The translations under genes were made by a program, and so were the position numbers. The notes under the pieces are model-generated. The model saw nothing but the letters and a program-made list of their open reading frames with translations, made no database searches and had not been told where the DNA came from. A stretch of 64,000 bases of DNA from Terriglobia bacterium (GTDB lineage: Bacteria > Acidobacteriota > Terriglobia > Terriglobales > Acidobacteriaceae): assembly GCA_020073015.1 (NCBI GenBank), contig JAIQFZ010000006.1, forward strand, positions 1 through 64,000, given 5' to 3'. Shown here in pieces: positions 3,001 through 30,014 of this stretch (positions are counted from its first letter, which is position 1; every line of letters begins with the position of its first letter).

Positions 3001-4482
3001 CTCGGTACGGGAACTACGAACCAGCAGAACGTAGTCGCCCTGTATACCGCGTTCACCACAACCCAAGCGCCGAGCCAGCCGCAAGCGGACGCCACCACCC
3101 CCAACGGCAACGGTGTGATCATCACCGGAGGTACCGGTGCCTGCACCAACCCCGCAAGCTATTGGGACATTGGCGTGCGCGGTGACACAGGACCCGGCAA
3201 TCACGCCTCAACCTTCACCCTGCACCCGACGTACTCGATCCTGACGGACGCCAGCGACTATCCGGGGGCAAACAATTTGTCGTCCAACCCGACCGTTATC
3301 AGCCAGTACTGCAACGGTTCTCGGGTGCCGCCGGAGTTGGGTTCGATGGGCTACCAGGTGCCACCGGGCATCTCGGACGCCACCGTGCCTAACCCAATCT
3401 TCAACCTGACGCCAGCCGCAACGGTGGACGAGGGCAACAACTGGATCAACATCAGCTGGGGCCCGCTGGCGGAGACGAACCCGGTCTCGGGAGCCGTGCT
3501 CGGCAACTACGCGCTGGCAGCTGGTTCACCAGCGATCAACGCCATCCCGACCTCGTCCGCGAACGGCACCGGAGTAGCGCCGACGACCGACTTCTTCGGC
3601 AATAACCGGCCCTTGGGCGGTGCATATGACATCGGCGCGGTAGAGTTCCGGGGCACTCCGCCAGCTCCGACTTCGATCACTCCGAACACGGGGGTGCGTG
3701 GAACCGTTGTTCCGGTGACCATTGCGGGCAGCGGCTTGACGGGAACTACGGCAGTAGCCGTGTCCGGCACCGGGGTTACCGTCAGCGCCATAACCGTGGT
3801 GAACGACAGTACCGTGACGGCAACCTTCACCATAACTACGACTGCGACGCTTAGCGCGAGGAACGTCAGCGTTACCACTTCGGGCGGAACCGCTACTCTG
3901 ACCGGGGCGTTCACGGTGACTGCTCCACCAGCGCCGACGCTGACCTCCGTCACTCCCAACTCGGGTGTGCGAGGAACCGCCGTTTCGGTAACCCTGACAG
4001 GCACTAACCTGACGGGAACCAGTGCCGTCCTGGTGTCCGGCACCGGAGTTACTGTCAGCAACATCGCGGTGGTGAACGACACTACGGTGACGGCGACCTT
4101 CACGATCACAACTGGCGCGACCCTTAGTGCGAGGACCGTCCGGGTCACTACGCCGGGCGGCACTAGCCCCACGGCCGGAGCCCCGACGTTCACCGTGCAG
4201 GGAGCGACGCTGACCTCCATCGCCCCCAACGCACACACGCGCGGCGGCGCCGCCTTCCAGGTGACCCTAACCGGTACCAACCTGACTGGCGCAACCTCAG
4301 TGAACGTGACACGGCCCGGCGGCGGCGCGGTCGGCATCACCGTTACCGGCGTTACCGTGGTGAACTCCACTACGGTCACGGCGAACTTCACGATCGCGGC
4401 GACTGCTAACCAATCGGCGAGGAACGTCACCGTCACCACGCCAATCGGGCCCACGAACGCCGTGACGTTCACGGTCCAGTAA
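1..4482 (+). CDS. Giant secreted beta-helix/IPT surface protein, 5'-truncated by the window edge
   Basis: The reading frame is open from base 1, and its first codons align with the interior of the 3089-aa protein at 17590-26859 (from about its residue 1558), so this is the C-terminal part of a paralogue that begins upstream. The visible 1493 residues contain a region with cysteines conserved between the two copies (about 1-390). A right-handed beta-helix/pectate-lyase-like region follows (about 395-1200), with many NN- and GGG-rich turns and an IQTAIDLAKPGDLIIV entry strand. Three tandem IPT/TIG immunoglobulin-like domains end the protein (about 1218-1493), each opening with a SITPNTGVRGT-like segment. 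Such architecture is typical of extracellular structural or adhesive proteins; no catalytic motif is evident. Unlike the full-length paralogue it has three rather than two IPT units and lacks the extra C-terminal domain. The family role is inferred, not shown. Confidence 0.85.
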   Translation: MGNIFILPDQATIDNPYNAQNQTQNLGRVENLPSHEGDTGSVESFWPCVGQARVVPDYISLFPLSQEVSPFAGATRNLCDRKEVTLDEQTSALAKFYIFTSTHAAAHFTGVITDDYTSEFDPFSPQFGEKFSPPDLPVSIRDFNGNEILRTYADHWGTYNGLNYSTWEVNPPNPTGYAPTMMVTCMNDPGTGPVPDPLFNPQYSDFCYELPFMPGQTQYMDTPVVPTSAFAGAGYNNPDCAYPAATPAIAEVDGDGVGPWVLQAGNTITIHALGDQSVPNNAYSGPSATTDPYNKKFVTRHYGFGATAGTVALLGRDGIARPLTGVSWSDTTITGTVPSMPSQGSTCPIVQQLQYGGTGNSQRCGELVITTSSGQQSIDTVTVTIAGKAPTHVAATDSIQTAIDLAKPGDLIIVDPTCTTTAGPAACAVTGQTHSQATHEELLLMWKPVRLQGVGAASSLINANTHPAGKLDAWRARVNCLFGLGLNGSPSTWDSSCGAGWFGFSNANGINPQVDRLATEATVGWDATLNGNLAELLQEPSLMGALEGAGITVLSKGVYFPSSPWVTIGATFPTGTLLLNNGTSTQNGCGPNNANAHNPYPSNFWCNPSSIDGLTITNSSQGGGGIFVHAWGHNLQIANNRIQNNAGTLSGGINVGQGEFPPAYLQGAANADPGSCNLSATQGSLSLPANAQQPYCHDLYVNVHHNSVTSNSSTGDELFSATPAGAGGVSFCTGSDYYKFNFNWVCGNLSTGDGGGFAHMGFIFNGDIEHNTFLFNQSTNPTIAANGGGVLIMGAPDVDPTCGTTTDADCVPAPSSVTPSDGVGPNLVINANLIMGNAAEAGSGGGLRFQQVNGGEVLAFPTTPANWYSPRVTNNIIANNVAGWDGAGISLQDALTINIINNTVMSNDTTASSGVLFNTLGSPLASSSGTNCMNGSTSSCPQPAGLVSIQNSSVLKANLALLPTAITCPTGHPNCQNFSSPVLANNVFWQNHAFYIGVGSLGTGTTNQQNVVALYTAFTTTQAPSQPQADATTPNGNGVIITGGTGACTNPASYWDIGVRGDTGPGNHASTFTLHPTYSILTDASDYPGANNLSSNPTVISQYCNGSRVPPELGSMGYQVPPGISDATVPNPIFNLTPAATVDEGNNWINISWGPLAETNPVSGAVLGNYALAAGSPAINAIPTSSANGTGVAPTTDFFGNNRPLGGAYDIGAVEFRGTPPAPTSITPNTGVRGTVVPVTIAGSGLTGTTAVAVSGTGVTVSAITVVNDSTVTATFTITTTATLSARNVSVTTSGGTATLTGAFTVTAPPAPTLTSVTPNSGVRGTAVSVTLTGTNLTGTSAVLVSGTGVTVSNIAVVNDTTVTATFTITTGATLSARTVRVTTPGGTSPTAGAPTFTVQGATLTSIAPNAHTRGGAAFQVTLTGTNLTGATSVNVTRPGGGAVGITVTGVTVVNSTTVTANFTIAATANQSARNVTVTTPIGPTNAVTFTVQ

Positions 4483-4536: not shown

Positions 4537-5061
4537 ATGAAAAACCTGATGATGCGATCAACCATCTTCGCCAATCTTCTGCTTTGCGGCGCTCTGTTTG
4601 GACAGAGCGCCGCACCAGCTTCAACCGAAAACAAAACCAATCCATCGGCAGCCCCAGCGGTGAAGCCTGTAAAAACTGCGGCTAAATCGCCCTATCACCC
4701 CAATCGCTTCGCCGGACGAGCAGGTTCGTATTACCGGCTGGTCTGGGGAGTCGACTCTCTCGCAGTAAAGTGGACGGAGTCGGGCGAGGTTATAAAATTC
4801 ACCTACCAGGTGTTAGACGCCGATAAGGCCAAGACACTCAATGACAAGAAGAACGAGCCTTCTTTAATCGACCCGCAGGCCGGGGTCAAACTGGTGGTCC
4901 CGTCGCTGGAGAAGGTTGGGCAATTGCGTCAGAGCGCCACTCCTGAGGACGGCAAGTCCTACTGGATGGCTTTCTCGAACAAAGGCCGGCGGGTGAAGCG
5001 CGGAGACCGCGTGAGCATAGTGATCGGACAATTTCGAGCCGACGGCCTCGTAGTGGATTAG
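4537..5061 (+). CDS. 174-aa secreted protein of unknown function, copy 1
   Basis: The protein starts with a hydrophobic signal segment ending near FGQSAAP, followed by a low-complexity Ala/Pro/Lys linker to about residue 55 and a compact C-terminal domain (about 60-174). That domain is nearly the same in the second copy at 27060-27584: both contain WGVDSLAVK, an LNDKKNEPSLIDP block, GVKLVVPSLEKVG, YWMAFSNKGR and a closing FRADGL. I do not recognise a named family. Its fixed place between a giant surface protein and a LolA-like protein in both loci suggests a dedicated periplasmic or surface partner of the giant protein. ATG at 4549 is an alternative start that still leaves a signal peptide. 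Confidence 0.85.
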   Translation: MKNLMMRSTIFANLLLCGALFGQSAAPASTENKTNPSAAPAVKPVKTAAKSPYHPNRFAGRAGSYYRLVWGVDSLAVKWTESGEVIKFTYQVLDADKAKTLNDKKNEPSLIDPQAGVKLVVPSLEKVGQLRQSATPEDGKSYWMAFSNKGRRVKRGDRVSIVIGQFRADGLVVD

Positions 5062-5191: not shown

Positions 5192-6061
5192 ATGCCGGGC
5201 AAGAAGTCCCTGCTTCTGAGTGTCCTATTCTGCCTGTGTTGTTCGCTGGCCTTGGTGGCGACGGATAGCAAGCCTGCGCCTGCCGACCTGACTGCCGCAC
5301 AGATCGTCGAAAAGAATATTGCGGCCCGCGGCGGTCTGCAAGCATGGCGCGGGGTCCAGACGATGTCGTGGACCGGCAAAATGGATGTCGGCGGCGGCTC
5401 GCTCGAGCGCAGCCGAAGAATGGCTGAACGTAAGCGCGGACGTCCCGGCAGGATGGAGATCACGGACCACAAGGATGCCGCGACCAAGGAAGAGGCCATC
5501 AAGCAAACCCAGCTGCCCTTCGTGTTCGATATGAAGCGCCCGGGCAAGTCAAGAGTCGAGATTGAATTTGCAGGCAAGAAAGCTGTGCAGGTTTACGACG
5601 GAACCAACGGGTGGAAGCTGCGTCCCTTCCTCAACCGGAACGATGTGGAGCCGTTCACGCCCGAGGAAGCGAAGTCCGAGGCGGGAAAGGATCTGGATGG
5701 CCCCCTGGTTGACTACGCGGCAAAGGGAACCAAAGTGGAAGTTGAGGGAGTGGAGAAGGTAGAAGACCGCGATGCCTACAAGCTCAAGCTCACCACTAAG
5801 ACCGGTAGTGTGCAACATGTCTGGATCGACAAACAGAGCTTTCTGGATGTAAAAGTCGAAGGATCACCGCGCCGCATGGATGGCAAGATGCATACGGTGT
5901 GGATTTACCAGAAAGACTTCCGATCCGTGCAAGGCGTAATGATTCCCTTCGTTCTGGTGACGGTAGTTGACGGATACCATGAAACGCACCAGATGGTAAT
6001 CGAGAAGGCAGAAGTAAATCCGAAGCTGGATGACGCTTTGTTCGCTAAGCCTAAGGTGTAA
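5192..6061 (+). CDS. LolA-like outer-membrane lipoprotein-sorting protein, copy 1
   Basis: This 289-aa exported protein has an N-terminal signal peptide ending near ALVATDSKP. Its body carries the hallmarks of the LolA/LppX-fold family annotated as outer membrane lipoprotein-sorting protein: a QIVEKNIAARGG helix, a VQVYDGTNGWKLRPF strand pair, a VDYAAKGTKVEVEGVEKV segment and a C-terminal LDDALFAKP. LolA-like proteins bind lipid or a lipoprotein acyl chain in the periplasm. Here a role in handling a surface component of the neighbouring giant protein/oxidase locus is inferred. The paralogue at 27635-28462 lacks an internal stretch of about 15 residues around the basic region near residues 70-95. 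The start is set by a GAGGAG ribosome binding site eight bases upstream. Confidence 0.85.
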   Translation: MPGKKSLLLSVLFCLCCSLALVATDSKPAPADLTAAQIVEKNIAARGGLQAWRGVQTMSWTGKMDVGGGSLERSRRMAERKRGRPGRMEITDHKDAATKEEAIKQTQLPFVFDMKRPGKSRVEIEFAGKKAVQVYDGTNGWKLRPFLNRNDVEPFTPEEAKSEAGKDLDGPLVDYAAKGTKVEVEGVEKVEDRDAYKLKLTTKTGSVQHVWIDKQSFLDVKVEGSPRRMDGKMHTVWIYQKDFRSVQGVMIPFVLVTVVDGYHETHQMVIEKAEVNPKLDDALFAKPKV

Positions 6062-14392: not shown

Positions 14393-15997
14393 ATGAGGAA
14401 GCTTTTCCCGTTCTGTGTGTCACTGATTGTGGTCGTGGTTGCGACTCTCGCCGCGAATGCGCAGTCTTTCCAAGTTCAATGTCCAACCAGCACCATCACG
14501 CACCCGGTAGCGCGCACTTCGGCTCAGGGTGAGCCCGCGTACAGCGGGGCGACGACGTTTTCGACTGGCTCGCAAGGATACCAAGTACCTACTGCCAACG
14601 TGAACGGCGCGATTAAGTGCCAGCAGATCTCCGGCGGCGATGGTTTCGCGACCATGGGAGACGGCACTCAGACCTATTTGTTTGCCTTCGGTCCTCTGTC
14701 CGGATTGGCGGATATGGCTGCCGGGAAGCCCGGAACCCAGTTCCCGGATGTTTTCAATAGCGTTTTCTCGGGTACGTTGAAGCCCGGTGATCCGGCTACT
14801 ACGAACGGCGCCGGCGACGATCCATACGCGATCGGTAACCTCAGCACCTTTTCGTTTAACGGCGCTGTTGGGCTGGCTCCCGATCTGGATGCCATCGCGA
14901 GCGGCGCTTGCACTGCCCCGTGTATCGACGGTCACGTCGATCCGCGCCCAATCATGGATGTTGGTGTCATGAACGGCAACATGCCCGCGCCGCTGATGGC
15001 GATCGATGAAGATGACGAATTCTTCCTCACGTTGACCAACGTCGGCCAAGTCATGCGTCCCGACCTGTTCGAACAGCATACCGTTCACTTCCACGGTTAT
15101 CCCAATGCCTCCGCGTTCTACGACGGCGTGCCTGATGCTTCGGTGGCCATCAACATTGGCGGCAGCTTCACCTATTACTATCTAGCGCCCGAGGCTGGCA
15201 CTTACTTCTGGCACTGCCACATCACTCCCCCAGAGCACTTGCAGATGGGCATGGTCGGTCAAATCTACGTGCGCCCACGGCAGAACCGCTGGTCGGGAAC
15301 CCTCTTTGCAGGTTTGCAGCAACAGCAGTTGGATCTGCGGACCAAGTGCGATTCCACGGACATTCTGTGCAGCAATCCCTTGCCAGCCGTGAATACTGGG
15401 GCTAGTAACGACAGCACCAAGAAGTATGCCTATAACGACGGCGATGGTTCTACCGCCTATAACGTTGAGTATCCCCTCCAGATCCACGGTTTCGATCCCA
15501 ACTTCCACTTCGTCGGCATGACCTTCAACCCGGAGAACTTCACGGGCATGAAGGATAAGTACTTTCTGTTGAATGGCCGCAGTTATCCCGACACTGTGAA
15601 CCCCGATCCTCTGGCGACCCAGACTACCGATGGAGTCATGCACTATTCGCAGCCGATGCCGTCGATCATCAACATTCCAGCGGGCGGCAAGGCTTTGCTG
15701 CGCATTGCCGACCTGGACGTCACGGAATATCAGACACTGGCCTCCCTGGGCATTCCGATGCAGGTCATCGCGCTCAATGCCAAACTGCTGCGCGATCAGG
15801 CGGGCAACAACCTCTACTACAACACCAACTCAATCACGTTGGCTGGTGGCGAGTCGCTCGACGTGATTCTGGATGCCAGCGACCAAGCCAAATATCCCTC
15901 GGGTAGCGTGTTCTACCTTTACACCCCCAACCTTGATCACCTGTCGAACGATGCCGAGAACTTCGGCGGGTTGATGACCGAAGTCCGGATTAACTAG
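14393..15997 (+). CDS. Multicopper-oxidase-fold protein A, carrying the N-terminal-type copper motifs
   Basis: This 534-aa exported protein (signal peptide ending near AANAQSF) has cupredoxin domains of the multicopper oxidase superfamily. It carries motif I as HFHG (residues 232-235), and motif II as H274-C275-H276 in a WHCHITPPEHLQMGM context. That C275, with H282 and M287, could form a type-1 copper site inside this domain. The C-terminal cupredoxin has the fold signature but not the ligands: where HPxHxHG is expected it reads SLGIPMQVIA, and where HCHxxxH is expected it reads NLDHLSNDAENFGGLM. The next gene carries the missing motifs, so A probably works with it. The ribosome binding site is AAGGAGG, and the downstream gene follows after 10 bases. 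Confidence 0.85.
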   Translation: MRKLFPFCVSLIVVVVATLAANAQSFQVQCPTSTITHPVARTSAQGEPAYSGATTFSTGSQGYQVPTANVNGAIKCQQISGGDGFATMGDGTQTYLFAFGPLSGLADMAAGKPGTQFPDVFNSVFSGTLKPGDPATTNGAGDDPYAIGNLSTFSFNGAVGLAPDLDAIASGACTAPCIDGHVDPRPIMDVGVMNGNMPAPLMAIDEDDEFFLTLTNVGQVMRPDLFEQHTVHFHGYPNASAFYDGVPDASVAINIGGSFTYYYLAPEAGTYFWHCHITPPEHLQMGMVGQIYVRPRQNRWSGTLFAGLQQQQLDLRTKCDSTDILCSNPLPAVNTGASNDSTKKYAYNDGDGSTAYNVEYPLQIHGFDPNFHFVGMTFNPENFTGMKDKYFLLNGRSYPDTVNPDPLATQTTDGVMHYSQPMPSIINIPAGGKALLRIADLDVTEYQTLASLGIPMQVIALNAKLLRDQAGNNLYYNTNSITLAGGESLDVILDASDQAKYPSGSVFYLYTPNLDHLSNDAENFGGLMTEVRIN

Positions 15998-16007
15998 GAG
16001 CGCAGCA

Positions 16008-17573
16008 ATGAGGGCGACGAATATGAAAAGAGCGATTTCCAAGACACAACTGCTTCTGGCGATGGTGGTCACGATGACACTGTTGCTTACGCCGACGGCT
16101 TTCGCGGCGGCTCCTGGAATCACGGGCCCAACCTTCAACCTGACGGCGCAGCCCTCCTTCATCAGCGAGCCCGACGGCTCCTTCGTTTATTCGTGGGGGT
16201 ATGGGTGCAATGGCGCGCCGCTCGGCTATGCCCCGGCGGCGATCTCCAGCAACTTCTGCAATACCATGCAGATACCCGGGCCGACGCTGATCGTTACGCA
16301 AGGACAGGCGGTCACGGTGACGCTCACGAACAATCTGCCCAACGCGGCCGGGAACACATCCATTCTTTTTCCCGGCTTCAACGTGGCAACCACGGGCGGC
16401 GTTGCGGGACTGCTGACGCAAGAGGCAGTGCCCGGCGGTTCGGTGACCTACACGTTCACTGCTTCGACGCCCGGCACGCGCTCCTATTACAGCGGAACAC
16501 AAGGCGACCTCCAGGTTGAGATGGGCCTGTACGGGGCGATCATCGTCCTGCCCTCCACGATCCCCGCAGCCTGCACATCCGGGATTCACGCCAGCAACCA
16601 GACGGCACAAGGCAACTGGGGTGAATCCGATTTCCGGCTGGCAGCGGCGGCATACAACCACCCGGGCGCCTGCTATGACAGGGAATACTTGTTCCAGTTC
16701 TCCGAGATGGATGACAGGATTCACCGAGAAGCCGAAGCACAGTCCACCCGGGCTTGCACGGGTTGCATGAGCGTCGCCACCGAGCCTTATGTTCCGGCCT
16801 ACTTCATGATCAACGGCCGCTCGATGCCGGACCTTATGGATCCCAACTATGCTCCGGAATATCCACACCAGCCTTACAACGGCAATCCGCACATGCATCC
16901 TGGCGAATTGACATTGTTGCGCGTCATCGGCCAGGGACGCTGGCAACACCCGTTCCACGAGCACGGCAACCACGTGCGCGTGCTGGCCCGCGATGGAAAT
17001 TTGATTCTCAGCGCGACCGATCCTAACAGTCTTGCCGGACCGTTACTCTTCACGACAACCACAACCCCGGGCCAGGCGATGGATGGAATCTACTACTGGA
17101 CGGGCAAGGGGCTGAACTGGGATCCGTATGGCCATAACCCCACCTCGAGTGACCCACAGGCCAAGCTGACGTGTACGCCGGATGGCAACGGCTACAACAC
17201 GAGCGCGCCAGCCGCAATCAATTATTTCGAGTGGTGCCAGGATCACAACAAGCCACTGCAAGCTACGCCAGCTGGCGATGTCGCTGGTGGCGGTCCGGCA
17301 ACTCTGCCCGATCCCAACATCTTCGCTAACGGTGCTTGGTTCGGTGGCAGCCCCTATCTGGGACCAAACGCGACGGTACGCGCGGTTGGCACGACCGGGA
17401 CCACACCACCCTCCGGGACGGTAGCGAACGCGCCCGATTCCGAAGCCGGCTTTGCCTTCATGTGGCACTCGCACAACGAGCGCGAAATCACCACGAACAA
17501 TATTTTTCCGGGCGGCATGCTCATGATGATGCTGGTTGATTCCCGGGAATTCGTCATCGACGAGTCCAACTAA
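16008..17573 (+). CDS. Multicopper-oxidase-fold protein B, carrying the C-terminal-type copper motifs
   Basis: This 521-aa protein has an N-terminal hydrophobic export segment and multicopper oxidase domains complementary to protein A. The first cupredoxin keeps the framework (IPGPTLIVTQGQAVTVTLTN, GLYGAIIV), but the HxHG position reads LFPG and the HxH position reads YYSGTQGD. The last cupredoxin carries motif III as H314-P-F-H317-E-H319-G. Motif IV appears as H487-S-H489-NERE493, so the type-1 cysteine and following histidine are replaced by Ser and Glu. Alone it would lack half of the trinuclear cluster; paired with A all four motifs would be present, with the type-1 site in A. The ribosome binding site is AGGAG; the next gene starts 16 bases after the stop. 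Confidence 0.85.
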   Translation: MRATNMKRAISKTQLLLAMVVTMTLLLTPTAFAAAPGITGPTFNLTAQPSFISEPDGSFVYSWGYGCNGAPLGYAPAAISSNFCNTMQIPGPTLIVTQGQAVTVTLTNNLPNAAGNTSILFPGFNVATTGGVAGLLTQEAVPGGSVTYTFTASTPGTRSYYSGTQGDLQVEMGLYGAIIVLPSTIPAACTSGIHASNQTAQGNWGESDFRLAAAAYNHPGACYDREYLFQFSEMDDRIHREAEAQSTRACTGCMSVATEPYVPAYFMINGRSMPDLMDPNYAPEYPHQPYNGNPHMHPGELTLLRVIGQGRWQHPFHEHGNHVRVLARDGNLILSATDPNSLAGPLLFTTTTTPGQAMDGIYYWTGKGLNWDPYGHNPTSSDPQAKLTCTPDGNGYNTSAPAAINYFEWCQDHNKPLQATPAGDVAGGGPATLPDPNIFANGAWFGGSPYLGPNATVRAVGTTGTTPPSGTVANAPDSEAGFAFMWHSHNEREITTNNIFPGGMLMMMLVDSREFVIDESN

Positions 17574-17589
17574 TTACGAGGAGACAGCA

Positions 17590-20500
17590 ATGCGATTCAA
17601 CAATCTCAAGGCGACTTTGAAAACAGCGGTACTAGTAACAACTGTTCTCCTCCTCGGAGCGGGTCTCGCAGTCGGTCAGGTGACAGTCAACCTGACCGCA
17701 GGGCCGAGCACGGCGACGCTACCCGACGGCTCAGCGGTGCCCATGTGGGGTTACAGCTGCGACGGCGGTGCGAGCGCGAACTGCCGCGCGTTGAATGGCT
17801 CGACGTCGGTCGGCGCCTGGTCCCCCGTTGTGATTACTGTTCCTACGGGGCAAAACCTGACGATCAGCCTGACCAACAGTCTGTCCTTTACGGCTGGAGC
17901 GGGCACGAATGGCATACCCACTTCGCTGACCATCGTCGGCCAGTTGGGCGGCGGTCTGGGAAGCACGGCGCAGAGGAGCACCACGCCGAGTCCGGACCAT
18001 CCCACGCAGACACTCACGTGGCCGGCCGCCAGCAGTGACCCGGGTGACGGCGCGAACAATCCGCCGCCGCAGGGACCGCGCGTGCAGTCGTTTGCTACGG
18101 AAGTTGCCGCAGGAGCCACGACCAGCCTGACCTGGACAGCTCCCCGGCCCGGAACCTATTTGCTGGAGTCGGGCACTCACCCATCGATTCAAGGGCCGAT
18201 GGGACTGTTCGGCATCGTGGTGGTGACGAGTGCGCCCGTGGGAACCACGGCGGGCACCGCCTATTCGGCAGGGGCGAATCCTGCTGTGACCTACAACGCG
18301 GACATTCCGCTGCTGTTTAGTGAAATCGATCCGGTCCAGAACAAATCGGTCGACACGGCGGTCCGTACGGCTGGCTTCACCGAGACCAAGGTGTGGTCTG
18401 GACAGCCAGATCATTGCGGCAATGCGGCTTCCGCGGACTACAACACCTGCTATCCGCCGGCCGTGAACTACTCTCCGCGCTATTACCTCATCAACGGACT
18501 TGCGTTCGACAAGACCCACGCTTCGCTCTCGTTGTTCCCAGTTGCGCCCGCCTCGGGAGTCACCGGAACCGTCCTGGTGCGCATGGTCAATGCTGGCCTG
18601 CGCATGCACATCCCGTCGATTGTTGGCGCCCAAACCGGGTCTGCAGCATCGGGCTTCGGACTGATTGCGGAAGACGGCAATCCGCTTCCTGGCGTAACCC
18701 GCGTGCAAAGCGAAGTGTTCATGGCCCCGGGCAAAACGTACGACGTGATGATCAATGTGCCTGCGGCGGGCGGCACGGCTCTCCCGATCTTCGACCGCCA
18801 GGGGAGCTTGTCGGGCAACGCGACCACACGTGACGCCGGCATGTTGGCGTACCTCAGCGTCAATGGCGCGGCGCTGCCAAATGTGGCGGCATTCTCGGCC
18901 TCTGCGACAGCGAATGGCGATACCTATCATGTGATCGCGGACCATACGCTCACGGTCGCGGATCCGTCCAAGGGCGTGATCGGTAATGACGCCAATGTTT
19001 ACAACGTCAAGGTTTCCACACCGCCGACGCAGGGCACGCTCACTCTGAACACCGACGGAACTTTCACCTATGTTCCTAACGCTGGGTGGACCGCTCCTGA
19101 CAGCTTCGTGTACCAGGCCAACGGCAGCGGCCCGACCGCGACCGTGACCCTGGATGCGTGCACGAATGGCAACGGCTGCCTTGAAGCGGCCGTCGGCATC
19201 AGCCTTACAGACGATGCCTACACATCTGCGATCGGCCCACGCGCCGCTAAGCCTGCAAGTTTCAGCATCAAGCCTCCCGGCGTCCTCTTCAACGATAAAG
19301 ACGGCGCCGGCTTCCCGCTCAAGGTTGCGCTGTCCGGTAGCGATGCTCCCGTGGCGTCCGCCGGCCTCACCCTTTCGGTGGATCCGGACGGCGGATTCAA
19401 TGCATCCGTGAGCGCAGCGGGCACCTATACCTTCACTTACAAGGCGGTTAACTCCCAGGGAACGGTCAGCGCCTCCGCTGCGACCGTGACCCTGAGCTTC
19501 CCAACGCCGAACGGTCCTGCGGTCACGCTGGTGGACGGCGCAACCAAGGCTGCCCTGAGTACTCAGGACTACCGCTGGATCATTGAGGAAGACCGCACCT
19601 TCTATGTAAACCCCAATTGCCAAACGAACCCTGTGCCCGCAGGTTGCCCGGTTGCCACTCCTCAAGGGGCTCCCGCGATCTTTGGGACGAACTTCCACAC
19701 CAGCTACATGCCCGTCGTAGCGCAGGGCTGCGTCGGGACGATTTCCTGCGAAGATGGGCAGTTCGTCCTCGACAGTAGCGGTGCCCACGTACCCGCAGTG
19801 TGCGACATCGGCAATGGAGCCTGCAGACCCGGCACCACCAAGACGGAGGTCGATCCCAGCCAAGTTGTTCTGGATCCGACCAAGCACTACTACATCTCGG
19901 TCCTGCCTGGCGATGCCATGGATCCGGGACACGGCATGGGCGGCGCTCAGATTGCCCCTGGACAGACGTCAGTGTCGGTCACGGTTGAGCCCGAGCTAGC
20001 GCAAGCGGCTAAAGTCTCAGTGTTCGTGTTCGAAGATGACCATCCGCTCAACGGCGAGCACGATGCCAGTGGCGGTATCGACACATTGTCGCCGAACGAG
20101 GCCGGCTTGGGTGGGTTTAACATCACCATCCTCGACCTGGTAGGCATGTCGGGCGACCCTGCCGGTCAGATGACCTACGACGAGTTCGGCCAACCTCTGT
20201 CGAACGCCTTGGCGGGAACCATCGATCCGGTCACGAAGAAGGATGCGTGCCCGGTCACCGCAAATCCGACGAAAGGATTTGACGGAACCGACAGTCCTGT
20301 GGGCATCACCGGCGTGATCCCTGTCTGCCCGAGGTACGAGTCGGACGGCACAACGCTGTCCCCACTAGCCGGTCAGGCGATCGTCGTGAACATGCCTCCC
20401 GGAAGGTACGGCATCGTAGCCACGCCCGCTGCGGACCGGATTGCACGTGGTGAAGAGTGGCTGCAAACCAACACTCTGGACGGCGGAAAGGACCACGAGG

Positions 20501-23500
20501 CTTTCATCCGTAACAACGAACCCAGCTACTTCCAGGAATTCGGTCCGGGTTCATTCCACGTGTCCATTGGCTTTGCCAATCCGAAGTTCATCCATGACAT
20601 TGGACATGCGCTTTGTACCGGTACTGGCGCCCCAGCGTGCAACCAGACGGTGCAGGGAATCGTCACCGGCGCGCATATGAGCCGACCCTCGGATGAGAGA
20701 CTGTACGGCAGTGGCACGAACGATACGTTTGGTTACACCCAGTGCTACGTGAGCCTGGGGAGCCCGGACGGCGCCGACTTCGCGTTCACTAAGTGCAATA
20801 GCGATGGAACGTTCAGCCTGGCCGGCATTCCCGAAGGTGATTGGAAGATCACGGTCTTCGACCAGTGGAACGACATCATCGTCGACGGGATTTCGACCCC
20901 CGTGCGCGTGGGCAGCGATAACGCCACCTTGTGTCATGGATCGAATTCTTCTGGCTCGGTCTGCGATATGGGAGAAATCGCGGTGAACGCGTGGAAGGAT
21001 AACCTCAACACCCGCACGTTCTTCGACGTGAACGGAAACGGTATCTCGGACGACGGTGAGCAAGGGCTCACATTCGTGCCCACCAACATCCGGTACCGCG
21101 ACGGCAGTATCTCCAACCTGAACAGCACCGACCTGGAAGGTTTCGCCGGCTTCAACGAGGTCTTCCCGATCTTCAACTGGTATGTGATGGAAACGGATTC
21201 GAACCGCTATAAAACCACCGGGATACACGTCATCAACGACGCAGGTGGCCCGGTCGACGGTTCCACCGGCCCCTACGCCTGCGGCCAAGGCAACTTCCCG
21301 GCTTGCGGAGATTCCTCCCTCCTGCAGAACCTTGCCAGGACTAACGAGGATTTCCCTCTGCCCGTGGGGGATGCCACTCATCCAAACTTGCGGATTCCCG
21401 GCGCGGTCTATTGCGATCATGCTGACTGCGCTGGCTTCTCGATCGCAAATGGGCCGATCGCCGGTGGTTCGAGCGGCCCGGGCGGCTCCACTGGCCGAAT
21501 CGATCCGCCTTGGGTCACCAGCTACGGTTGGCAGAATTTCATGGGGCAGAACCAGCTCCTGGAATTCGGCAAGAAGCCATTCGCAGCGGGCGAGAACGGC
21601 GGCATCCGCGGCCACGTCGTATATACCTCGACCCGTCCGTTTGATGACCCGGCACTGCTGCTCCAGCTTACTTGGGAACCGCAGGTTCCGAACGTCACGA
21701 TGAACCTCTACCAGGAGGGCTTTGCGGCAGACGGAGTAACCCCGACCCTGACCCTGGTGGACACGACCAAGACCAGCAGCTGGGACGAGTGGGCGCAGGG
21801 CTTCCGCTCCGACGGCGTGCCGAACATGAACTGCCCGGGCCAGTCAACCGGCGATCTGTTCTTCTACACCATCAATAATCAGCCGAACCTCCTGGATTTC
21901 TACAACTCCCAGCACGGAGGACCGGCGGTGACTCCGCTGCCGTACAACTCCCAGTACAAGTGCTATGACGGAATGCACAACTGGAACCAGCTGCAACCGG
22001 CTCCGTACGACGGCATGTATTCATTCCCCAGCGTCACGGGCTTGAATCCGACCACCGGGAAGCCAGCCGGGACCAATTGCACGATTTGTGTGTCGAATCC
22101 GGACAACACGGATCCCTACCGGTTCGGTACGGCCATGCTGCCCGCAGGCAAGTACGTAGTCGAAATGATTGTTCCTCCGGGCTACGAACTGGTGAAAGAA
22201 GAAGACAAGAACATCCTGCTTGGCGACACGTACGAAGCTCCGGTAACCACGCAGTTCGCCGGCTTCGGCAACATTTTCATTATGCCGGACCAGGCTTCGG
22301 TCGCGTCTGCTTACAACCCGAACAATCCGCTGAATTCGACGACCGATCTGGGCGCAACGCCACGCCATGAAGGTGACACCGGAAGCGTTGAAACCTTCTG
22401 GCCTTGTGTCGGTACCGCCCGCGTTGTTCCCGACTACATGAGCCTCTTCCCGCAGTCGGGGCAGAACTCTCCGTTTGCCGGAGCCACGCGCAATCTTTGC
22501 GATCGCAAAGAGGTTACGCTCGAGGATCAGATGTCGGTGCTGGCGAAGTTCTACGTCTTCAGCTCAACCCACGTTGCTGCCCACTTCACGGGCATCATCT
22601 CGGACGATTTCACCTCGGAATTCGATCCGTTCTCGCCGGCGTTCGGCGAGAAGTTCTCGCCTCCCAATCTGCCGGTGGGCGTCCGGGATTTCAACGGAAA
22701 CGAAATCGCTCGCGTCTGGTCCGACCAACATGGAATCTATAACGGGCTGACGTACTCGACGTTCTCCGTGAACCCGCCGGATCCCAGCGGCTACATCCCG
22801 CAGATGATGGTCATGTGCATGAACGACCGTGGTTCTGGCGTGGCGCCCGATCCTTTCTATCAGGCCGCCTACAGCCAGTTCTGCTATGAGTGGTCCTTCA
22901 TGCCGGGCCAAACTTCCTACATGGATACGCCGGTGATCCCCACCTCCGCGTTTGCGGCGGAATACAACCATCCCGATTGTGCTTATCCGAACGCCACTCC
23001 GGCGATCAAGAGCGTCATCGGCAACGATGCAACTGGCTCCACGGCTGCCAGCGGTAAAGGACCGTGGGTGAGTGGGTCCGGTGCCGGTCACACTCTCACG
23101 ATCACCGCGCTGGGCGACGTTGACGTGAACGACTACGCGTACTCCGGGCCTTCTGCGACGGTGGCGCCGTTTAACAACAAGACGATCACCCGCCACTACG
23201 GCTTCGGGACCACGGCAGGTACGGTCGCTCTGCTCGGCAGCGATGGCAATACTTATCCGCTGACGGGCGTGAGTTGGAGTGACCTGACGATCACGGGCAC
23301 GGTTCCCAATGGGGTGCCGGCGTGCGCGATCCAGCAGCAGCGGCAATACGGAGGCCCGAACAACGGCAATGCCGAGCGCTGCGGTGAATTGGTGATCACG
23401 GCCGCCAATGGCAAAAAATCCATTGACACCGTGACCGTTACCATCGGCAGCATCGGAACCAATGGAAGCAAGATTCCGACGGTGCTCGCAGCTGGACAGA

Positions 23501-26500
23501 CGATTCAGTCCGCCATCGACGCTGCCGCACCGGGCGATCTGATCATCGTTCCTCCCGGTAGCTACCATGAATTGTTGCTGATGTGGAAGCCGGTCCGGCT
23601 GCAAGGAGTCGGAGCTGCGTCCAGCATCATCGACGCAAACACGCATCCTTCAGGCACTCTCCTCAATGACTGGCGCCTGCGGGTGGTCTGTCTGTTCGGG
23701 CTAGCCCCCAATGGCGTGCCTGACGGGTATGACTCGGCTTGCGGAAACGGCTGGAACTTCTTCAGTCCGACGACGTCGAACCCACAAGTCGATCGCTTGC
23801 CGTTGGAGGCCACAGTCGGCTGGGACGCCACGCTGAACGGCAACCTGGCAGAGCAGCTGCAGGAACCAAGCCTGATGGGAGCGTATGAAGGAGCGGGAAT
23901 TACCGTGCTCTCGAAGGGCGTGCGTTTCCCCAACGGATCGAACCCGTGGACCGACGGCGCTGAGCCGGGCGGGTTCCCGGTCGGCACCACGCTTCTTGAC
24001 AACGGCACCCAGGCTCTCAGCGCTGACCCCAACGGTTGCGGGCCAAACACCACAGGTGCTCACAATCCGTTCCCAAGCAGCTTCCAATGCAACCCGTCGC
24101 GTATTGACGGCTTGTCGGTTACCAACAGTTCCCAAGGCGGCGGCGGCATCTTCGTGCACGGCTGGGGACACAATCTGGAAATCGCCAACAATCGCGTCTA
24201 CAACAACCAGGGCACGCTGTCGGGCGGGATCACGGTTGGCCAAGGGGAACATCCTGGCGCCTACGTCCAGGGAGCTGCCAATGCAGATCCGGGTTCCTGC
24301 GTTAACGGGGGCACGGGCGTTTTCACGAATACTCAGCTGCCGTACTGCTTTGACCGGTTTGTAAACGTACACCACAACGCGGTCACGGCGAACTCCTCCG
24401 AAGGCGATGAATTGTTCTCGGCCACTCCCTCAGGGGCGGGCGGCGTTTCCTTCTGTTCGGGTGCCGACAACTACCAGTTCAACTTCAACTGGGTGTGCGG
24501 CAACATGAGCACGGGTGACGGCGCTGGAGTTGCCCAGATGGGGTTCGTGTGGGATGCGAGCATCCAGCACAACACGATCCTGTTCAACCAGGCCACTAAC
24601 CCAACCACGCCCAGCAACGGCGGCGGTCTGCTCATCATGAGCGCTCCGGATACGGATCCGACCTGTCCTGGAGAGCCCGACGCGGATTGCAGCCATGCCT
24701 TCGGCACGGTGGGCGACGGCATCGGTCGCAACCTGGTGATCAACGCCAACCTCATCATGGGTAACGCTGCGGAAGCTGGTGCCGGCGGCGGTATCCGCTT
24801 CCAGGGTGTCAACGGCGTGGAAGTGTCCACGTTCCCCAACAATCCGGAGCGCTGGTACTCGGTCAGCGTTACGAACAACATCATCGCTAACAACGTTGCC
24901 GGTTGGGACGGTGGCGGCCTGTCGTTGCAGGACTCCATCGGAGTGAACCTGATCAACAACACGATCGTCTCCAACGACTCCACCGCATCGTCGGGAACGC
25001 TCTTTGGCGCCTTCTTTGCGACCCAAGCCAGCTCCCCGACACCTTGCCCACGGGACGCCCAGGGGGCAAACATCCCCTGCGTGCCGCTATCGGATCCGCA
25101 GCCAGCCGGCCTCTCGAGTGCCGGACACACGGCTGAGTTCCTCGCGTCGCTCCCGGCGAGCATCACCTGTCCTCCGGGCCATCCGATCGCCGCAAACCCC
25201 GCCAATGGCGTGGTGAATGGCGCTTGCCGGACGGTCTCGTACCCGAGTCTGTACAACGATGTGTTCTGGCAGAACCGCGCCTTCAACATCGTGGTGACGC
25301 AGCCGGCTGCGGGAGCCACGCAGGCAACGGTAACCCTGGTTCCAACGCTGAGTCAGACCAACACCGGCGATTGCATCGCTCCGCCGGCTGGGACGACCTA
25401 TTGGGATATCGGTCTGCGCGGCGACCACGGACCGACCGACCATAGCTCAGGGGTAACGTTCACACCGGAAGCGTCGGTGCTGACCGATATCACTGGCTAT
25501 GCTGGTGGAGGTTCAGGCTTCCGCGCCAACACGGCTTCCTTTAGCCCAGGCGTTGTCCGGCAGTACTGCAACGGCTCGAAGATTCCGCCGGAGGCGGGTG
25601 CTTCGACTTGGTACCAGGTGCCCCCGGGTACCTTTGAAGGCAACGTGCCCGTGCCCGTCTTCAGTCTGACGGCAGGGGCGACTGTGGACGAGGGCAACAA
25701 CTGGATCAATATCAGCTGGGGCCCCTTGTCACTGATCAAGCCGACTACGGAGACCAACCCGGCCACCGAGGATGTGCTTGCTGACTACTCGTTGTTGGCG
25801 GGCTCTCCGGCCATCAACTACATCACGCCAGTCAACTCCAGCAGGACTTACGCAGCGGCGCCGAACAATGATTTCTTCGGTAACCTGCGCAAGACCAACA
25901 ATGCGGTTGACGCGGGTGCGGTCGAGTTCGCGGGCCCGGCTGCTGCCCAGCCGACGCTGACCTCGATCGCTCCCAGCTCCGGACGGCGGAATAGCGCCGT
26001 AAACGTGACTCTCACCGGCACGAACCTGACCGGTGCCACAGGGGTGGCCGTGTCCGGAACTGGTGTGAACGCTATTTCCGTTAGCAACCTCGTGGTGGTG
26101 AACGACACTACCGTCACGGCGACCTTCACCATCGGAGCGAACGCTGCAGTTACCGGCGCAAACGCTTCCCACAACGTCACCGTCTCTACTCCTGGCGGAA
26201 CCAGCAACGCCGTGATCTTCACGGTGGTAGCGCCGTCGCTGGCTTCAGTCACTCCCAACACGGGCGTACGTAGCAGCACGGTTAACGTGAGCCTTGTGGG
26301 CACCGGCTTCACGGGAGCGACGGCTGTCAACGTCGTGGGACCGGGGGCAGTCAATGCCACCAGCTTCACGGTGGTGGATGACTCGCATATCAACGCGACC
26401 ATCCAAATCGGTGGTCTCTCGAATGCGCAACTCGGGAATCAGACTGTCAGCGTTACCACTCCGGGCGGAACCACCAACACCGTGCCGTTCACGGTCTTGG

Positions 26501-26859
26501 GGGGGACGGTCGCCTTCACCGGACCTGTCCCGGTGTTGACTTCGACCCCGGCCAACACCAACCAGAAGAACGGCGTGATCACGGTTACCAATAGCGCCAC
26601 CGGGGCGTTTGCTGGTCCGATTACGCTGACCGCGAATCCGACGATCGTTCCAGTGACGGGTGGCGCCAATGGAACGTTCTCGATCCAACCCGGCGGAACG
26701 TGCGTGTCGGGTTTCCAAATCACCTCAGGCGGCGGTACTTGCACGATCAATGTGCGGTACCAGCCAAACAATTCGTCAAATGCGACGGCCCATGTCACTC
26801 TCAACGATACCGGGGCCACCACCGCAACGCAGAGCAGCGCCAACTTCACTGCGAACTAA
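17590..26859 (+). CDS. 3089-aa surface protein: degenerate oxidase domains, Ig-like, SdrD-B-like, beta-helix, IPT
   Basis: The ATG at 17590 follows GAGGAGACAGCA and begins a signal peptide (ending near LAVGQ). Residues 30-430 resemble multicopper oxidase domains 1 and 2 (LVRMVNAGLRMHIP, GLIAEDGNPLPG, MAPGKTYDVMI) but lack the four copper motifs. Two Ig/cadherin-like domains follow (about 450-535 and 540-640), then Cna-B/SdrD-B-like modules (about 810-1340, including FFDVNGNGISDDGEQGL at 1142). A region shared with the truncated paralogue starts near 1558. A right-handed beta-helix (about 1963-2700), two IPT/TIG domains (about 2785-2970) and a terminal domain resembling ASPM/SPD-2/Hydin repeats complete it. 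It is the third gene of the oxidase operon, which suggests a scaffold or surface display platform for the A/B oxidase. Confidence 0.9.
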   Translation: MRFNNLKATLKTAVLVTTVLLLGAGLAVGQVTVNLTAGPSTATLPDGSAVPMWGYSCDGGASANCRALNGSTSVGAWSPVVITVPTGQNLTISLTNSLSFTAGAGTNGIPTSLTIVGQLGGGLGSTAQRSTTPSPDHPTQTLTWPAASSDPGDGANNPPPQGPRVQSFATEVAAGATTSLTWTAPRPGTYLLESGTHPSIQGPMGLFGIVVVTSAPVGTTAGTAYSAGANPAVTYNADIPLLFSEIDPVQNKSVDTAVRTAGFTETKVWSGQPDHCGNAASADYNTCYPPAVNYSPRYYLINGLAFDKTHASLSLFPVAPASGVTGTVLVRMVNAGLRMHIPSIVGAQTGSAASGFGLIAEDGNPLPGVTRVQSEVFMAPGKTYDVMINVPAAGGTALPIFDRQGSLSGNATTRDAGMLAYLSVNGAALPNVAAFSASATANGDTYHVIADHTLTVADPSKGVIGNDANVYNVKVSTPPTQGTLTLNTDGTFTYVPNAGWTAPDSFVYQANGSGPTATVTLDACTNGNGCLEAAVGISLTDDAYTSAIGPRAAKPASFSIKPPGVLFNDKDGAGFPLKVALSGSDAPVASAGLTLSVDPDGGFNASVSAAGTYTFTYKAVNSQGTVSASAATVTLSFPTPNGPAVTLVDGATKAALSTQDYRWIIEEDRTFYVNPNCQTNPVPAGCPVATPQGAPAIFGTNFHTSYMPVVAQGCVGTISCEDGQFVLDSSGAHVPAVCDIGNGACRPGTTKTEVDPSQVVLDPTKHYYISVLPGDAMDPGHGMGGAQIAPGQTSVSVTVEPELAQAAKVSVFVFEDDHPLNGEHDASGGIDTLSPNEAGLGGFNITILDLVGMSGDPAGQMTYDEFGQPLSNALAGTIDPVTKKDACPVTANPTKGFDGTDSPVGITGVIPVCPRYESDGTTLSPLAGQAIVVNMPPGRYGIVATPAADRIARGEEWLQTNTLDGGKDHEAFIRNNEPSYFQEFGPGSFHVSIGFANPKFIHDIGHALCTGTGAPACNQTVQGIVTGAHMSRPSDERLYGSGTNDTFGYTQCYVSLGSPDGADFAFTKCNSDGTFSLAGIPEGDWKITVFDQWNDIIVDGISTPVRVGSDNATLCHGSNSSGSVCDMGEIAVNAWKDNLNTRTFFDVNGNGISDDGEQGLTFVPTNIRYRDGSISNLNSTDLEGFAGFNEVFPIFNWYVMETDSNRYKTTGIHVINDAGGPVDGSTGPYACGQGNFPACGDSSLLQNLARTNEDFPLPVGDATHPNLRIPGAVYCDHADCAGFSIANGPIAGGSSGPGGSTGRIDPPWVTSYGWQNFMGQNQLLEFGKKPFAAGENGGIRGHVVYTSTRPFDDPALLLQLTWEPQVPNVTMNLYQEGFAADGVTPTLTLVDTTKTSSWDEWAQGFRSDGVPNMNCPGQSTGDLFFYTINNQPNLLDFYNSQHGGPAVTPLPYNSQYKCYDGMHNWNQLQPAPYDGMYSFPSVTGLNPTTGKPAGTNCTICVSNPDNTDPYRFGTAMLPAGKYVVEMIVPPGYELVKEEDKNILLGDTYEAPVTTQFAGFGNIFIMPDQASVASAYNPNNPLNSTTDLGATPRHEGDTGSVETFWPCVGTARVVPDYMSLFPQSGQNSPFAGATRNLCDRKEVTLEDQMSVLAKFYVFSSTHVAAHFTGIISDDFTSEFDPFSPAFGEKFSPPNLPVGVRDFNGNEIARVWSDQHGIYNGLTYSTFSVNPPDPSGYIPQMMVMCMNDRGSGVAPDPFYQAAYSQFCYEWSFMPGQTSYMDTPVIPTSAFAAEYNHPDCAYPNATPAIKSVIGNDATGSTAASGKGPWVSGSGAGHTLTITALGDVDVNDYAYSGPSATVAPFNNKTITRHYGFGTTAGTVALLGSDGNTYPLTGVSWSDLTITGTVPNGVPACAIQQQRQYGGPNNGNAERCGELVITAANGKKSIDTVTVTIGSIGTNGSKIPTVLAAGQTIQSAIDAAAPGDLIIVPPGSYHELLLMWKPVRLQGVGAASSIIDANTHPSGTLLNDWRLRVVCLFGLAPNGVPDGYDSACGNGWNFFSPTTSNPQVDRLPLEATVGWDATLNGNLAEQLQEPSLMGAYEGAGITVLSKGVRFPNGSNPWTDGAEPGGFPVGTTLLDNGTQALSADPNGCGPNTTGAHNPFPSSFQCNPSRIDGLSVTNSSQGGGGIFVHGWGHNLEIANNRVYNNQGTLSGGITVGQGEHPGAYVQGAANADPGSCVNGGTGVFTNTQLPYCFDRFVNVHHNAVTANSSEGDELFSATPSGAGGVSFCSGADNYQFNFNWVCGNMSTGDGAGVAQMGFVWDASIQHNTILFNQATNPTTPSNGGGLLIMSAPDTDPTCPGEPDADCSHAFGTVGDGIGRNLVINANLIMGNAAEAGAGGGIRFQGVNGVEVSTFPNNPERWYSVSVTNNIIANNVAGWDGGGLSLQDSIGVNLINNTIVSNDSTASSGTLFGAFFATQASSPTPCPRDAQGANIPCVPLSDPQPAGLSSAGHTAEFLASLPASITCPPGHPIAANPANGVVNGACRTVSYPSLYNDVFWQNRAFNIVVTQPAAGATQATVTLVPTLSQTNTGDCIAPPAGTTYWDIGLRGDHGPTDHSSGVTFTPEASVLTDITGYAGGGSGFRANTASFSPGVVRQYCNGSKIPPEAGASTWYQVPPGTFEGNVPVPVFSLTAGATVDEGNNWINISWGPLSLIKPTTETNPATEDVLADYSLLAGSPAINYITPVNSSRTYAAAPNNDFFGNLRKTNNAVDAGAVEFAGPAAAQPTLTSIAPSSGRRNSAVNVTLTGTNLTGATGVAVSGTGVNAISVSNLVVVNDTTVTATFTIGANAAVTGANASHNVTVSTPGGTSNAVIFTVVAPSLASVTPNTGVRSSTVNVSLVGTGFTGATAVNVVGPGAVNATSFTVVDDSHINATIQIGGLSNAQLGNQTVSVTTPGGTTNTVPFTVLGGTVAFTGPVPVLTSTPANTNQKNGVITVTNSATGAFAGPITLTANPTIVPVTGGANGTFSIQPGGTCVSGFQITSGGGTCTINVRYQPNNSSNATAHVTLNDTGATTATQSSANFTAN

Positions 26860-27021: not shown

Positions 27022-27059
27022 CGACCCAATAGCAGAAGGGGTGGCAAAGTCCAAGGGTG

Positions 27060-27584
27060 ATGTCCAGTAAGTTAGTAGTAAACACAAAGCTGCTGCTGAC
27101 AGCCGTTCTCGCCAGTGTGATCGCGTTTCCCCCCGCACAAGCGCAATCGGTTCAGGCCAATAAGAGTTCTGCGGTCCCGGCTGGGAAGGCTCGGGCGCCG
27201 GTGGTTCCACAACGCTATCGGCAAAATCGTATGCCGCCGAAAGCGCGTCAGTACTACGCAGTGATGTGGGGCGTTGATTCTCTCGCTGTGAAGTCAGTGG
27301 AGTCCGGCGAGATTATCCGGTTTACCTACCGCGTGCTCGACGCGGCGAAGGCAAAGGTTCTCAATGACAAGAAGAACGAACCGTCGTTGATCGACCCCGG
27401 AGCCGGTGTCAAACTGGTGGTCCCGTCTCTGGAGAAGGTTGGTAAGTTACGTCAGAGCAGTACGCCCGAGGCGGGCAAGGTGTATTGGATGGCCTTCTCG
27501 AATAAGGGCAGGTACGTGAAACCGGGGCACCGAGTCAGCGTCGAAATCGGACCGTTTCGGGCCGACGGCCTTATCGTCCAGTAG
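27060..27584 (+). CDS. 174-aa secreted protein of unknown function, copy 2
   Basis: This is the paralogue of 4537-5061, with the same length, the same gene neighbours and the same domain order: signal peptide (ending near PPAQAQS), short linker, then a conserved domain of about 115 residues. Within that domain MWGVDSLAVK, LNDKKNEPSLIDP, GVKLVVPSLEKVG, YWMAFSNKGR and FRADGL are kept, while the N-terminal linker has diverged completely. The pattern indicates purifying selection on the folded domain. The ATG at 27060 is chosen; a GTG immediately before it is an alternative. No family was recognised. Confidence 0.85.
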   Translation: MSSKLVVNTKLLLTAVLASVIAFPPAQAQSVQANKSSAVPAGKARAPVVPQRYRQNRMPPKARQYYAVMWGVDSLAVKSVESGEIIRFTYRVLDAAKAKVLNDKKNEPSLIDPGAGVKLVVPSLEKVGKLRQSSTPEAGKVYWMAFSNKGRYVKPGHRVSVEIGPFRADGLIVQ

Positions 27585-27634: not shown

Positions 27635-28462
27635 ATGTCTCGAAAAACGGTGTTAGTCAGCGGCTTCCTGGCCTTGGCTGTTTCCCTCGCCCTGGGTGCG
27701 GATGCGCCGTCCTCAGTGGCCAAACTGACGGCGGAGCAGGTCATAGAGAAGAACGTTGCGGCGCGGGGTGGGTTGCAGGCGTGGCGGGCGGTGCAGACTC
27801 TCTCCATGAGCGGCAAGATGGATGCCGGTGGGAACGAGAGCCCGACCCGTCCGGTGCAAGGAGTGAAGACCGGAGGTGTGCAGCTGCCCAGGCGTCCGGC
27901 GGAGCAGGCGCAGTTGCCCTTTCGGCTGGAACTGAAGCGCACGCGCAAGTCACGCATGGAACTCGATTTTCGTGGACAGACTGCGGTCCAGGTCTACGAT
28001 GGCACCAACGGCTGGAAGCTGCGTCCGTTCCTGAATCGCCACGAAGTAGAGCCGTTTACGAAGGATGAGATGAAAGCAGTCGCGACGCAATCCGATCTGG
28101 ACGGTCCGCTTGTGGACTACGCCACCAAAGGGACCAAGGTCGAACTGGAAGGCACCGAAAAGGTCGAGGGCAACGATACGTATCGACTGAAGCTGACTTT
28201 CAAGAACGGGCAATCCCAGCGCGTATGGGTGAATGCGAAAACCTTCCTGGAGGCCAAGATCGATGGCACGCCCCGCCGCCTGGATGGCAAGTACCACGCG
28301 GTCGAAGTATATTATCGTGACTACCGAGCAGTGAATGGCTTGATGATGCCCTACGTCATGGAGACGAAAGTGGAGGGAGTCAAGCAGACAGAGAAGATCG
28401 AGGTCGAAAAGATTGCCGTCAACCCGCGAGTGGAGGATTCTCGCTTTGCCAAACTGCAATGA
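27635..28462 (+). CDS. LolA-like outer-membrane lipoprotein-sorting protein, copy 2
   Basis: This 275-aa protein is the paralogue of 5192-6061. It has a signal peptide (ending near LALGADAPS), the VIEKNVAARGGLQAWRAVQT helix, VQVYDGTNGWKLRPFLNRHEVEPF, and a C-terminal VNPRVEDSRFAKLQ. The fold family binds lipids or acylated proteins in the periplasm; the actual cargo is unknown. It has a clear AGGAG ribosome binding site. Unlike copy 1, which is followed by a terminator and pump genes, this copy runs almost directly into an LTxxQ-type gene. Confidence 0.85.
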   Translation: MSRKTVLVSGFLALAVSLALGADAPSSVAKLTAEQVIEKNVAARGGLQAWRAVQTLSMSGKMDAGGNESPTRPVQGVKTGGVQLPRRPAEQAQLPFRLELKRTRKSRMELDFRGQTAVQVYDGTNGWKLRPFLNRHEVEPFTKDEMKAVATQSDLDGPLVDYATKGTKVELEGTEKVEGNDTYRLKLTFKNGQSQRVWVNAKTFLEAKIDGTPRRLDGKYHAVEVYYRDYRAVNGLMMPYVMETKVEGVKQTEKIEVEKIAVNPRVEDSRFAKLQ

Positions 28463-29662: not shown

Positions 29663-30014
29663 AGCGAGCCGCTATTTCCCAGGGATGTTGGCCTCGGCTC
29701 AGGCTGCACCAAACGATCTGGTTACGCTGCGACCGCAGCCATCGCAGACAGCCTTGCCTTGCTCCGCGGTGTGAATAAAGTCCACAATTGTCCCGCCTCC
29801 TTGACAGCTGAGTTGGAGCATATGACAATATCGCCAGTCGGCAGCGTAAGTTGCTTGTTCTCCGAGATTGGGTAACAACTCCCCCAATTTGCATGACAGA
29901 AGCGGGCAGACAGGGTAGCCGTGCGTGGGTATCCAATGGCTGCCCGGCTTGGAGGTAGGGGTGCGGGGCTTACGTCGCTTCACGAAACGTCCGTCCAACC
30001 TCTCAACTCCGCAC
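29663..30014 (+). promoter_or_regulatory. Intergenic region with sigma-70 promoter for the first two-component operon
   Basis: TTGACA (29801-29806) and GACAAT (29824-29829) are separated by exactly 17 bases, giving a start point near 29836 and a leader of roughly 180 bases before the kinase ATG. Nothing else was recognised in this 352-bp stretch. Confidence 0.6.

Follow-up and report, generated by a model that had tools for sequence, protein, structure and literature searches.

What does a degenerate oxidase module do at the head of a giant extracellular-type protein? The question is raised by gene C, which directly follows the multicopper oxidase (MCO) genes A and B in a 64,000-nt stretch of a contig from a soil acidobacterium, JAIQFZ010000006.1 (the window; Table 1). 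The open reading frame of C starts with the ATG at 17590 and ends at 26859 (3089 codons). The ORF coordinates confirm that it begins 16 nt after B, whose stop lies at 17573, as the initial annotation had reported, and the gap contains a GGAG box. A scan for consensus promoters and terminators returned nothing above shuffled sequences.

Table 1. Features of the A-B-C operon, its downstream neighbours and the second operon copy (positions in the window).
Feature	Position	Strand	Reading	Evidence
A	14393..15997	+	two-domain MCO subunit	Pfam Cu-oxidase_3/_2; best PDB relative by sequence 3g5w
B	16008..17573	+	two-domain MCO subunit	Pfam Cu-oxidase domains
C	17590..26859	+	3089 aa; giant extracellular-type body with a ligand-free two-domain MCO subunit as its head	
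C residues 30-436	17677..18897	+	third, ligand-free 2dMCO subunit (Cm)	AF2, Foldseek, hhalign
C residues 437-655	18898..19554	+	Ig/cadherin-like pair	Pfam Big_9, two stretches
C residues 656-1945	19555..23424	+	conserved body, prealbumin/CnaB-like domains	includes SdrD_B 1142-1210
C residues 1946-2790	23425..25959	+	right-handed beta-helix, ending in a choice-of-anchor-Q-like stretch	
C residues 2791-3089	25960..26856	+	TIG/IPT-like tail, not conserved	
D	27057..27584	+	small exported protein, no Pfam family	tblastn
E	27635..28462	+	LolA-like exported protein	Pfam LolA_like, E 1e-6
C' (C-terminal 1493 aa)	1..4482	+	paralogue of C	58% identity to C 1559-2979
D'	4537..5061	+	paralogue of D	60% identity
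E'	5192..6061	+	paralogue of E	50% identity; LolA_like

Pfam places Big_9 (residues 440-521) and SdrD_B on C and finds no oxidase domain, and a sequence search of the whole protein against the PDB gave no match. Residues 30-436 scanned alone showed no significant Cu-oxidase match, the best being a weak Cupredoxin_1 match (E 0.0065); among 49 relatives of this head, 25 match Cupredoxin_1 and 15 match Cu-oxidase at E values up to 0.1. Profile comparison with hhalign relates the head to the B profile (99.2% probability, E 5.5e-20) and to the A profile (62%, E 7.6e-5). Its AF2 model consists of two cupredoxins (pLDDT 80.8, pTM 0.82) and matches two-domain MCOs and copper nitrite reductases in Foldseek, with the Nitrosomonas two-domain MCO 3g5w as the top match (E 1.7e-14; VIA Z 22.2, 3.3 Å over 276 residues). 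Profile comparison and structure together settle the head of C as a two-domain MCO fold, in agreement with the initial annotation, which had described it as two MCO domains stripped of their copper motifs. None of the 75 fused relatives has these motifs, the sole exceptions being isolated strings (HC[HAG] twice, HxH eight times). The module (Cm) retains a few invariant His and Met residues (H137, H197 and M339-H340), which might still bind a metal.

The copper ligands lie in A and B. The sole type 1 (T1) copper site of the system is found in A (H229, C275, H282 and M287), together with four trinuclear-cluster histidines (H232, H234, H274 and H276), the second domain of A being without ligands. 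The complementary four cluster histidines belong to B (H317 and H319 in HPFHEHGN, H487 and H489 in WHSHNE), whose first domain is without ligands and has the T1 cysteine changed to serine. We take these residue roles from the motifs and from general knowledge of MCOs rather than from a copper-bound structure. The total is one complete T1 site and exactly eight cluster histidines distributed over A and B, with none in C. The pattern recurs in about 75 operons with a fused C, from Acidobacteriota, Burkholderiales and MAGs of other groups. It also recurs, unchanged, in 13 distant operons whose Cm is a gene of its own (split). The A motifs HxxHxHG and HCHxxxxxHxxxxM occur in 72 of 73 relatives of the fused type and in all 13 of the split type; the B motif is present in 79 of 79 fused and 12-13 of 13 split relatives (WHSHxE in 13 of 13); the copper motifs are present in none of the 75 fused or 13 split Cm modules.

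Profile comparison shows that A, B and C are mutually homologous, which makes A, B and the C head a set of three paralogous two-domain MCO (2dMCO) subunits. B and Cm have in common a decayed first-domain motif, SGTxxxxQxxMGL (Cys to Ser, His to Gln), which replaces the HCH...H...MGM stretch of A. This shared motif suggests that B and Cm descend from one decayed ancestor.

A scan with B, using one genome per species, yielded 194 relatives, 80 of which were examined. Their hosts are Acidobacteriota, Paraburkholderia, Cupriavidus, Pandoraea and MAGs assigned to other groups. Of 81 loci with B, 79 also have A and 80 have C; the three lacking one of them stop at a contig edge. Gaps below 60 nt separate A from B in 74 of 79 pairs and B from C in 76 of 80 pairs. 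The order A-B-C is kept on every sufficiently long contig, in about 80 relatives, so the arrangement is not due to chance. The possibility that C is an isolated or chance fusion was rejected because every relative carries C. Relatives with the same arrangement, which the initial annotation had proposed to seek, were thus found at about 80 loci, and the giant protein is linked to A and B in all homologous operons examined, either fused or split. The distances among A, B and C sequences correlate at 0.65-0.78 (about 75 sequences), which fits co-inheritance without being specific to it. The distribution is patchy, with B in 7 and the body of C in 15 of 396 Acidobacteriota genomes. In the Paraburkholderia record AP028202, the sole fully annotated record examined, A, B, C, D, E and F (the Burkholderiales duplicate of E) are all named 'hypothetical protein'.

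The 13 split operons (nine from Acidobacteriota, four found through a Burkholderiales search) form a subfamily at 36-52% identity, found in genomes with a weaker body match only and, in addition, in genome G231. Their gene order is giant, A, B and free Cm, the giant body having no oxidase head and Cm being a separate ligand-free two-domain oxidase, down to 349 residues in one locus (L102). Several free Cm genes bear other C-terminal additions. Since Cm and the body are separate genes in these operons, the C of the window is regarded as a fusion of subunit and body. Locus L099 (5857-12726) has the giant joined at its C-terminus to A rather than at its N-terminus to Cm; the body can fuse with either of the two. 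G231 holds both the fused and the split form (L094, L101). An A-B gene fusion suggested there by a 1109-codon frame was rejected, as A and B lie in different frames (L094).

2dMCOs are known to assemble into trimers whose protomers hold the cluster between them, type C having its T1 site in the N-terminal domain (PMC13151041), and the two-domain enzymes show activity only in this trimeric state (PMC3738974). Ceruloplasmin has a single trinuclear cluster, between domains 1 and 6 (PMC3738974), and six-domain oxidases are thought to derive from a tripled two-domain ancestor that subsequently lost sites (PMC3600357). Three co-encoded subunits with exactly one site, combined with the known 2dMCO trimers, make an A:B:C heterotrimer the simplest model. 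We consider it likely that the system is such a heterotrimer, with six cupredoxins, a single working site and a body that places the enzyme outside the inner membrane.

In the A:B:C heterotrimer, A, B and the N-terminal module of C would assemble as a ring of six cupredoxin domains, both the assembly and the ring order being predicted. Electrons from the substrate would enter at the T1 copper of A domain 1 and cross the His-Cys-His strand of A to the trinuclear cluster. This cluster would be held half by domain 1 of A and half by domain 2 of B, and O2 would be reduced to water there. The B/C and C/A interfaces are ligand-free, which would leave one live and two dead interfaces and make C a structural, perhaps substrate-selecting, third subunit. 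Following export by Sec and, in several lineages, by type II secretion, the body of C may then position the enzyme beyond the inner membrane, probably on the cell surface or within the matrix.

The initial annotation had pictured a ligand-free oxidase module heading a long stalk, on which the A/B enzyme would dock and be displayed at the surface. In that case A and B alone would be the enzyme, and the head of C a dead copy serving as a mere docking plug. A and B could conceivably form a heteromer without C, since the T1 site and the cluster require no other subunit; the head of C has no copper ligands, and SdrD/CnaB, Ig and TIG modules give its body a stalk-like make-up. However, the dead subunit is free of the giant body in the 13 distant operons and yet always encoded with A and B, which is why we interpret the C head as the trimer's third subunit. 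The fusion of the body to A in L099 and the need of 2dMCOs for three subunits also argue against a plug, as does the conservation of the body, which is about that of the oxidase module (62-72% mean pairwise identity over residues 656-1945 vs 66%). A docking plug is therefore improbable. What stands of the earlier proposal is the ligand-free head on a long extracellular-type body, encoded with A and B; its docking role on a stalk fits poorly with a free-standing module and a conserved body.

The Ig-like, SdrD-B-like, beta-helix and IPT modules that had been described downstream of the head were recovered with Pfam and NCBIfam, the beta-helix region through weak Beta_helix/NosD matches and the TIG domain when the tail was scanned alone (E 2.7e-4). 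The anchor-type match, choice_anch_Q at residues 2732-2780, scores barely above its NCBIfam cut-off (25.6 vs 25 bits), and the N-termini look signal-like by eye. Conservation differs among the modules. Mean pairwise identity is highest in residues 1301-1800 (72%), lowest among the inner modules in the Ig pair (51%), and falls to 29% in the TIG tail, which is often absent (occupancy 0.45). On these values the tail is dispensable, and IPT modules were rejected as an essential element. A body as conserved as the oxidase parts points to more than a passive stalk or spacer. Its model has low confidence (pLDDT 62, much of residues 1301-1945 included) and matches SdrD, BcpA and CnaB folds, this weak model backing prealbumin-like domains only. 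The stretch of about 500 residues at 1301-1800 (window 21490-22989) contains many invariant Cys, His, Asp and Glu residues and belongs to no Pfam family.

As for export, Cupriavidus metallidurans CH34 has GspF, GspE, secretin and pseudopilin genes clustered immediately upstream of A and on its strand (L090, 4669-14165). Parts of a type II secretion cluster occur upstream in eight further loci, about nine in total, including Pandoraea, C. basilensis and several MAGs. The adjoining Gsp genes suggest export of the system by type II secretion in those lineages. In the genome of the window, a related secretin is found near A', on the other strand.

A second recurrent neighbour is G, which combines a cytochrome c with a periplasmic-binding protein and stands beside the system in several lineages. 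The same architecture has been described for MofC of the mof/omp operons (PMC5566968). Seven of the nine Burkholderiales genomes with G carry A, B, Cm and the giant, six of them with these genes in the stretch around G, the seventh being G396 (the genome of locus L084). G also stands beside the system in at least one Acidobacteriota locus; it was not found in the genome of the window. A mof/mnx-type operon of a Burkholderiales genome, G548 (L138, 5141-17470), encodes a 1988-codon MCO-like frame without a Pfam match, a G homologue, a beta-propeller, SCO1 and a PpiC/SurA isomerase.

Downstream of C, gene D was found by tblastn in 41 examined loci and in Paraburkholderia, and E follows D in Acidobacteriota and Burkholderiales, being duplicated as F in the latter. 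As they follow C in many Acidobacteriota and Paraburkholderia, D and E are part of the conserved neighbourhood. The window also opens with the end of a second operon copy. A', B' and the start of C' lie on another contig (C232, locus L009), which ends inside C', and window positions 1-139 are identical to L009 14620-14758. From this exact 139-base overlap of contig ends, the two contigs probably join inside C', and the operons are probably in tandem, in the order A'-B'-C'-D'-E', a CusB/CusA-type pair and A-B-C-D-E. Several copies per genome are common; one MAG contig (VBMV01000053.1) carries two tandem operons about 16.5 kb apart (L054 and L056).

The pair between the tandem operons (window 6193-11143) consists of a CusB-like protein with HMBD and YHS domains and a CusA-like RND protein. 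Of about 80 loci, only two others have CusB or CusA homologues nearby, and CusBA was therefore rejected as a standing partner. A weak Metal_resist-like gene lies downstream, at 28413. A sensor kinase and a response regulator at 29925-32644 are a candidate regulator, with homologues upstream of the operon in about seven other Acidobacteriota loci.

The substrate would be extracellular, either a metal (Mn, Fe or Cu) or a phenolic compound. Metal oxidation is plausible, and the lead is slightly strengthened by a G partner like that of mof/mnx-type operons. An Mn(II) or Fe(II) oxidase, functionally analogous to MofA or MnxG and building or using metal oxides outside the cell, is a possible reading to be held with reserve. 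It accords with a large secreted MCO and with the MofC-like partner of several lineages, whose homologue in G548 shares an operon with the 1988-residue MCO-like protein, SCO1 and the PpiC/SurA isomerase. However, the A, B and Cm profiles compared with that single-chain giant MCO gave E values above 0.1, so that close kinship with it was rejected, and the genome of the window lacks a detected MofC-type partner.

A laccase role, in which phenolic or humic matter is oxidised in acidic soil, is somewhat unlikely. Most hosts are soil and peat Acidobacteriota, Paraburkholderia or Cupriavidus, 2dMCOs include laccases (PMC13151041), and the beta-helix could bind a polymer, but no carbohydrate- or lignin-processing genes appear among the recurrent neighbour families looked at. 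Defence against copper by CueO-like oxidation of Cu(I) is very improbable: although the CusB/CusA-type pair and the Metal_resist-like gene would suit it, CusBA is not a recurrent neighbour, and CueO-like enzymes work without a giant body. Metal oxidation thus remains the leading, if weak, guess, slightly favoured over phenolic oxidation. On the widest reading, the system might be a natural split ceruloplasmin: a heterotrimer of six cupredoxins whose single active site comes from three diverged two-domain genes, mounted on a giant secreted scaffold and serving soil bacteria in the extracellular oxidation of metals. It would thereby preserve in living cells the triplication-then-site-loss step suggested for six-domain oxidases (PMC3600357). 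We propose this reading tentatively, as it may well prove wrong.

If the heterotrimer is correct, a single site would be kept in three separate chains, implying that site loss can precede fusion. Relatives in cultured Paraburkholderia, C. metallidurans CH34, Granulicella and Pandoraea open it to genetics, so that a large uncharacterised extracellular oxidase system could be directly reached in cultured hosts.

The closest known systems are the type C 2dMCOs, such as the Nitrosomonas europaea blue copper oxidase 3g5w, which is the top PDB match both of A by sequence and of the C model in Foldseek. They likewise have two cupredoxins per subunit, as found here for A and B (Pfam, profiles) and C (AF2, VIA). 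Their T1 site lies in the first domain, an N-terminal position found here in A only, and their cluster is common to two subunits, as it would be in A and B with four histidines each. However, they are homotrimers with equal sites, whereas here three incomplete genes have one site among them, and one subunit bears a body of about 2650 residues. Without a homotrimer of complete subunits, the system is best described as a variant rather than a plain 2dMCO member. Ceruloplasmin and the six-domain MCOs likewise combine six cupredoxins with one trinuclear cluster, the partner interfaces being dead (PMC3738974, PMC3600357), as proposed here. In ceruloplasmin these belong to one chain, in contrast to the three chains and single T1 site of this system.

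Among metal oxidases, the MofA/OmpB and MnxG/McoA operons also encode a large exported MCO and a MofC-type partner, the latter found here in several lineages. MofA/OmpB and MnxG are single-chain MCOs, whereas the copper motifs are here split over A and B, and the accessible part of the reports on MofA/MnxG-type operons mentions no giant SdrD/beta-helix body. MnxEFG of Bacillus likewise needs a heteromeric assembly for a working MCO (PMC5622069), as is proposed here. Its MnxE and MnxF have no similarity to characterised proteins, in contrast to the three MCO paralogues found here, two of which would share the active site. The literature searched, outside which most subscription journals lie, contained no description of this system or of a heterotrimeric or giant MCO of this kind. 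The body of C resembles MSCRAMM- and pilin-type surface proteins (SdrD, BcpA) in its prealbumin-like modules and differs from them in its Gram-negative-type hosts, in being fused to or encoded with an oxidase, and in being mostly without a Pfam family. Overall, the comparison identifies the system, as judged from its genes, as a widespread and apparently undescribed variant of the 2dMCOs that is heteromeric, has a single site and carries a giant body.
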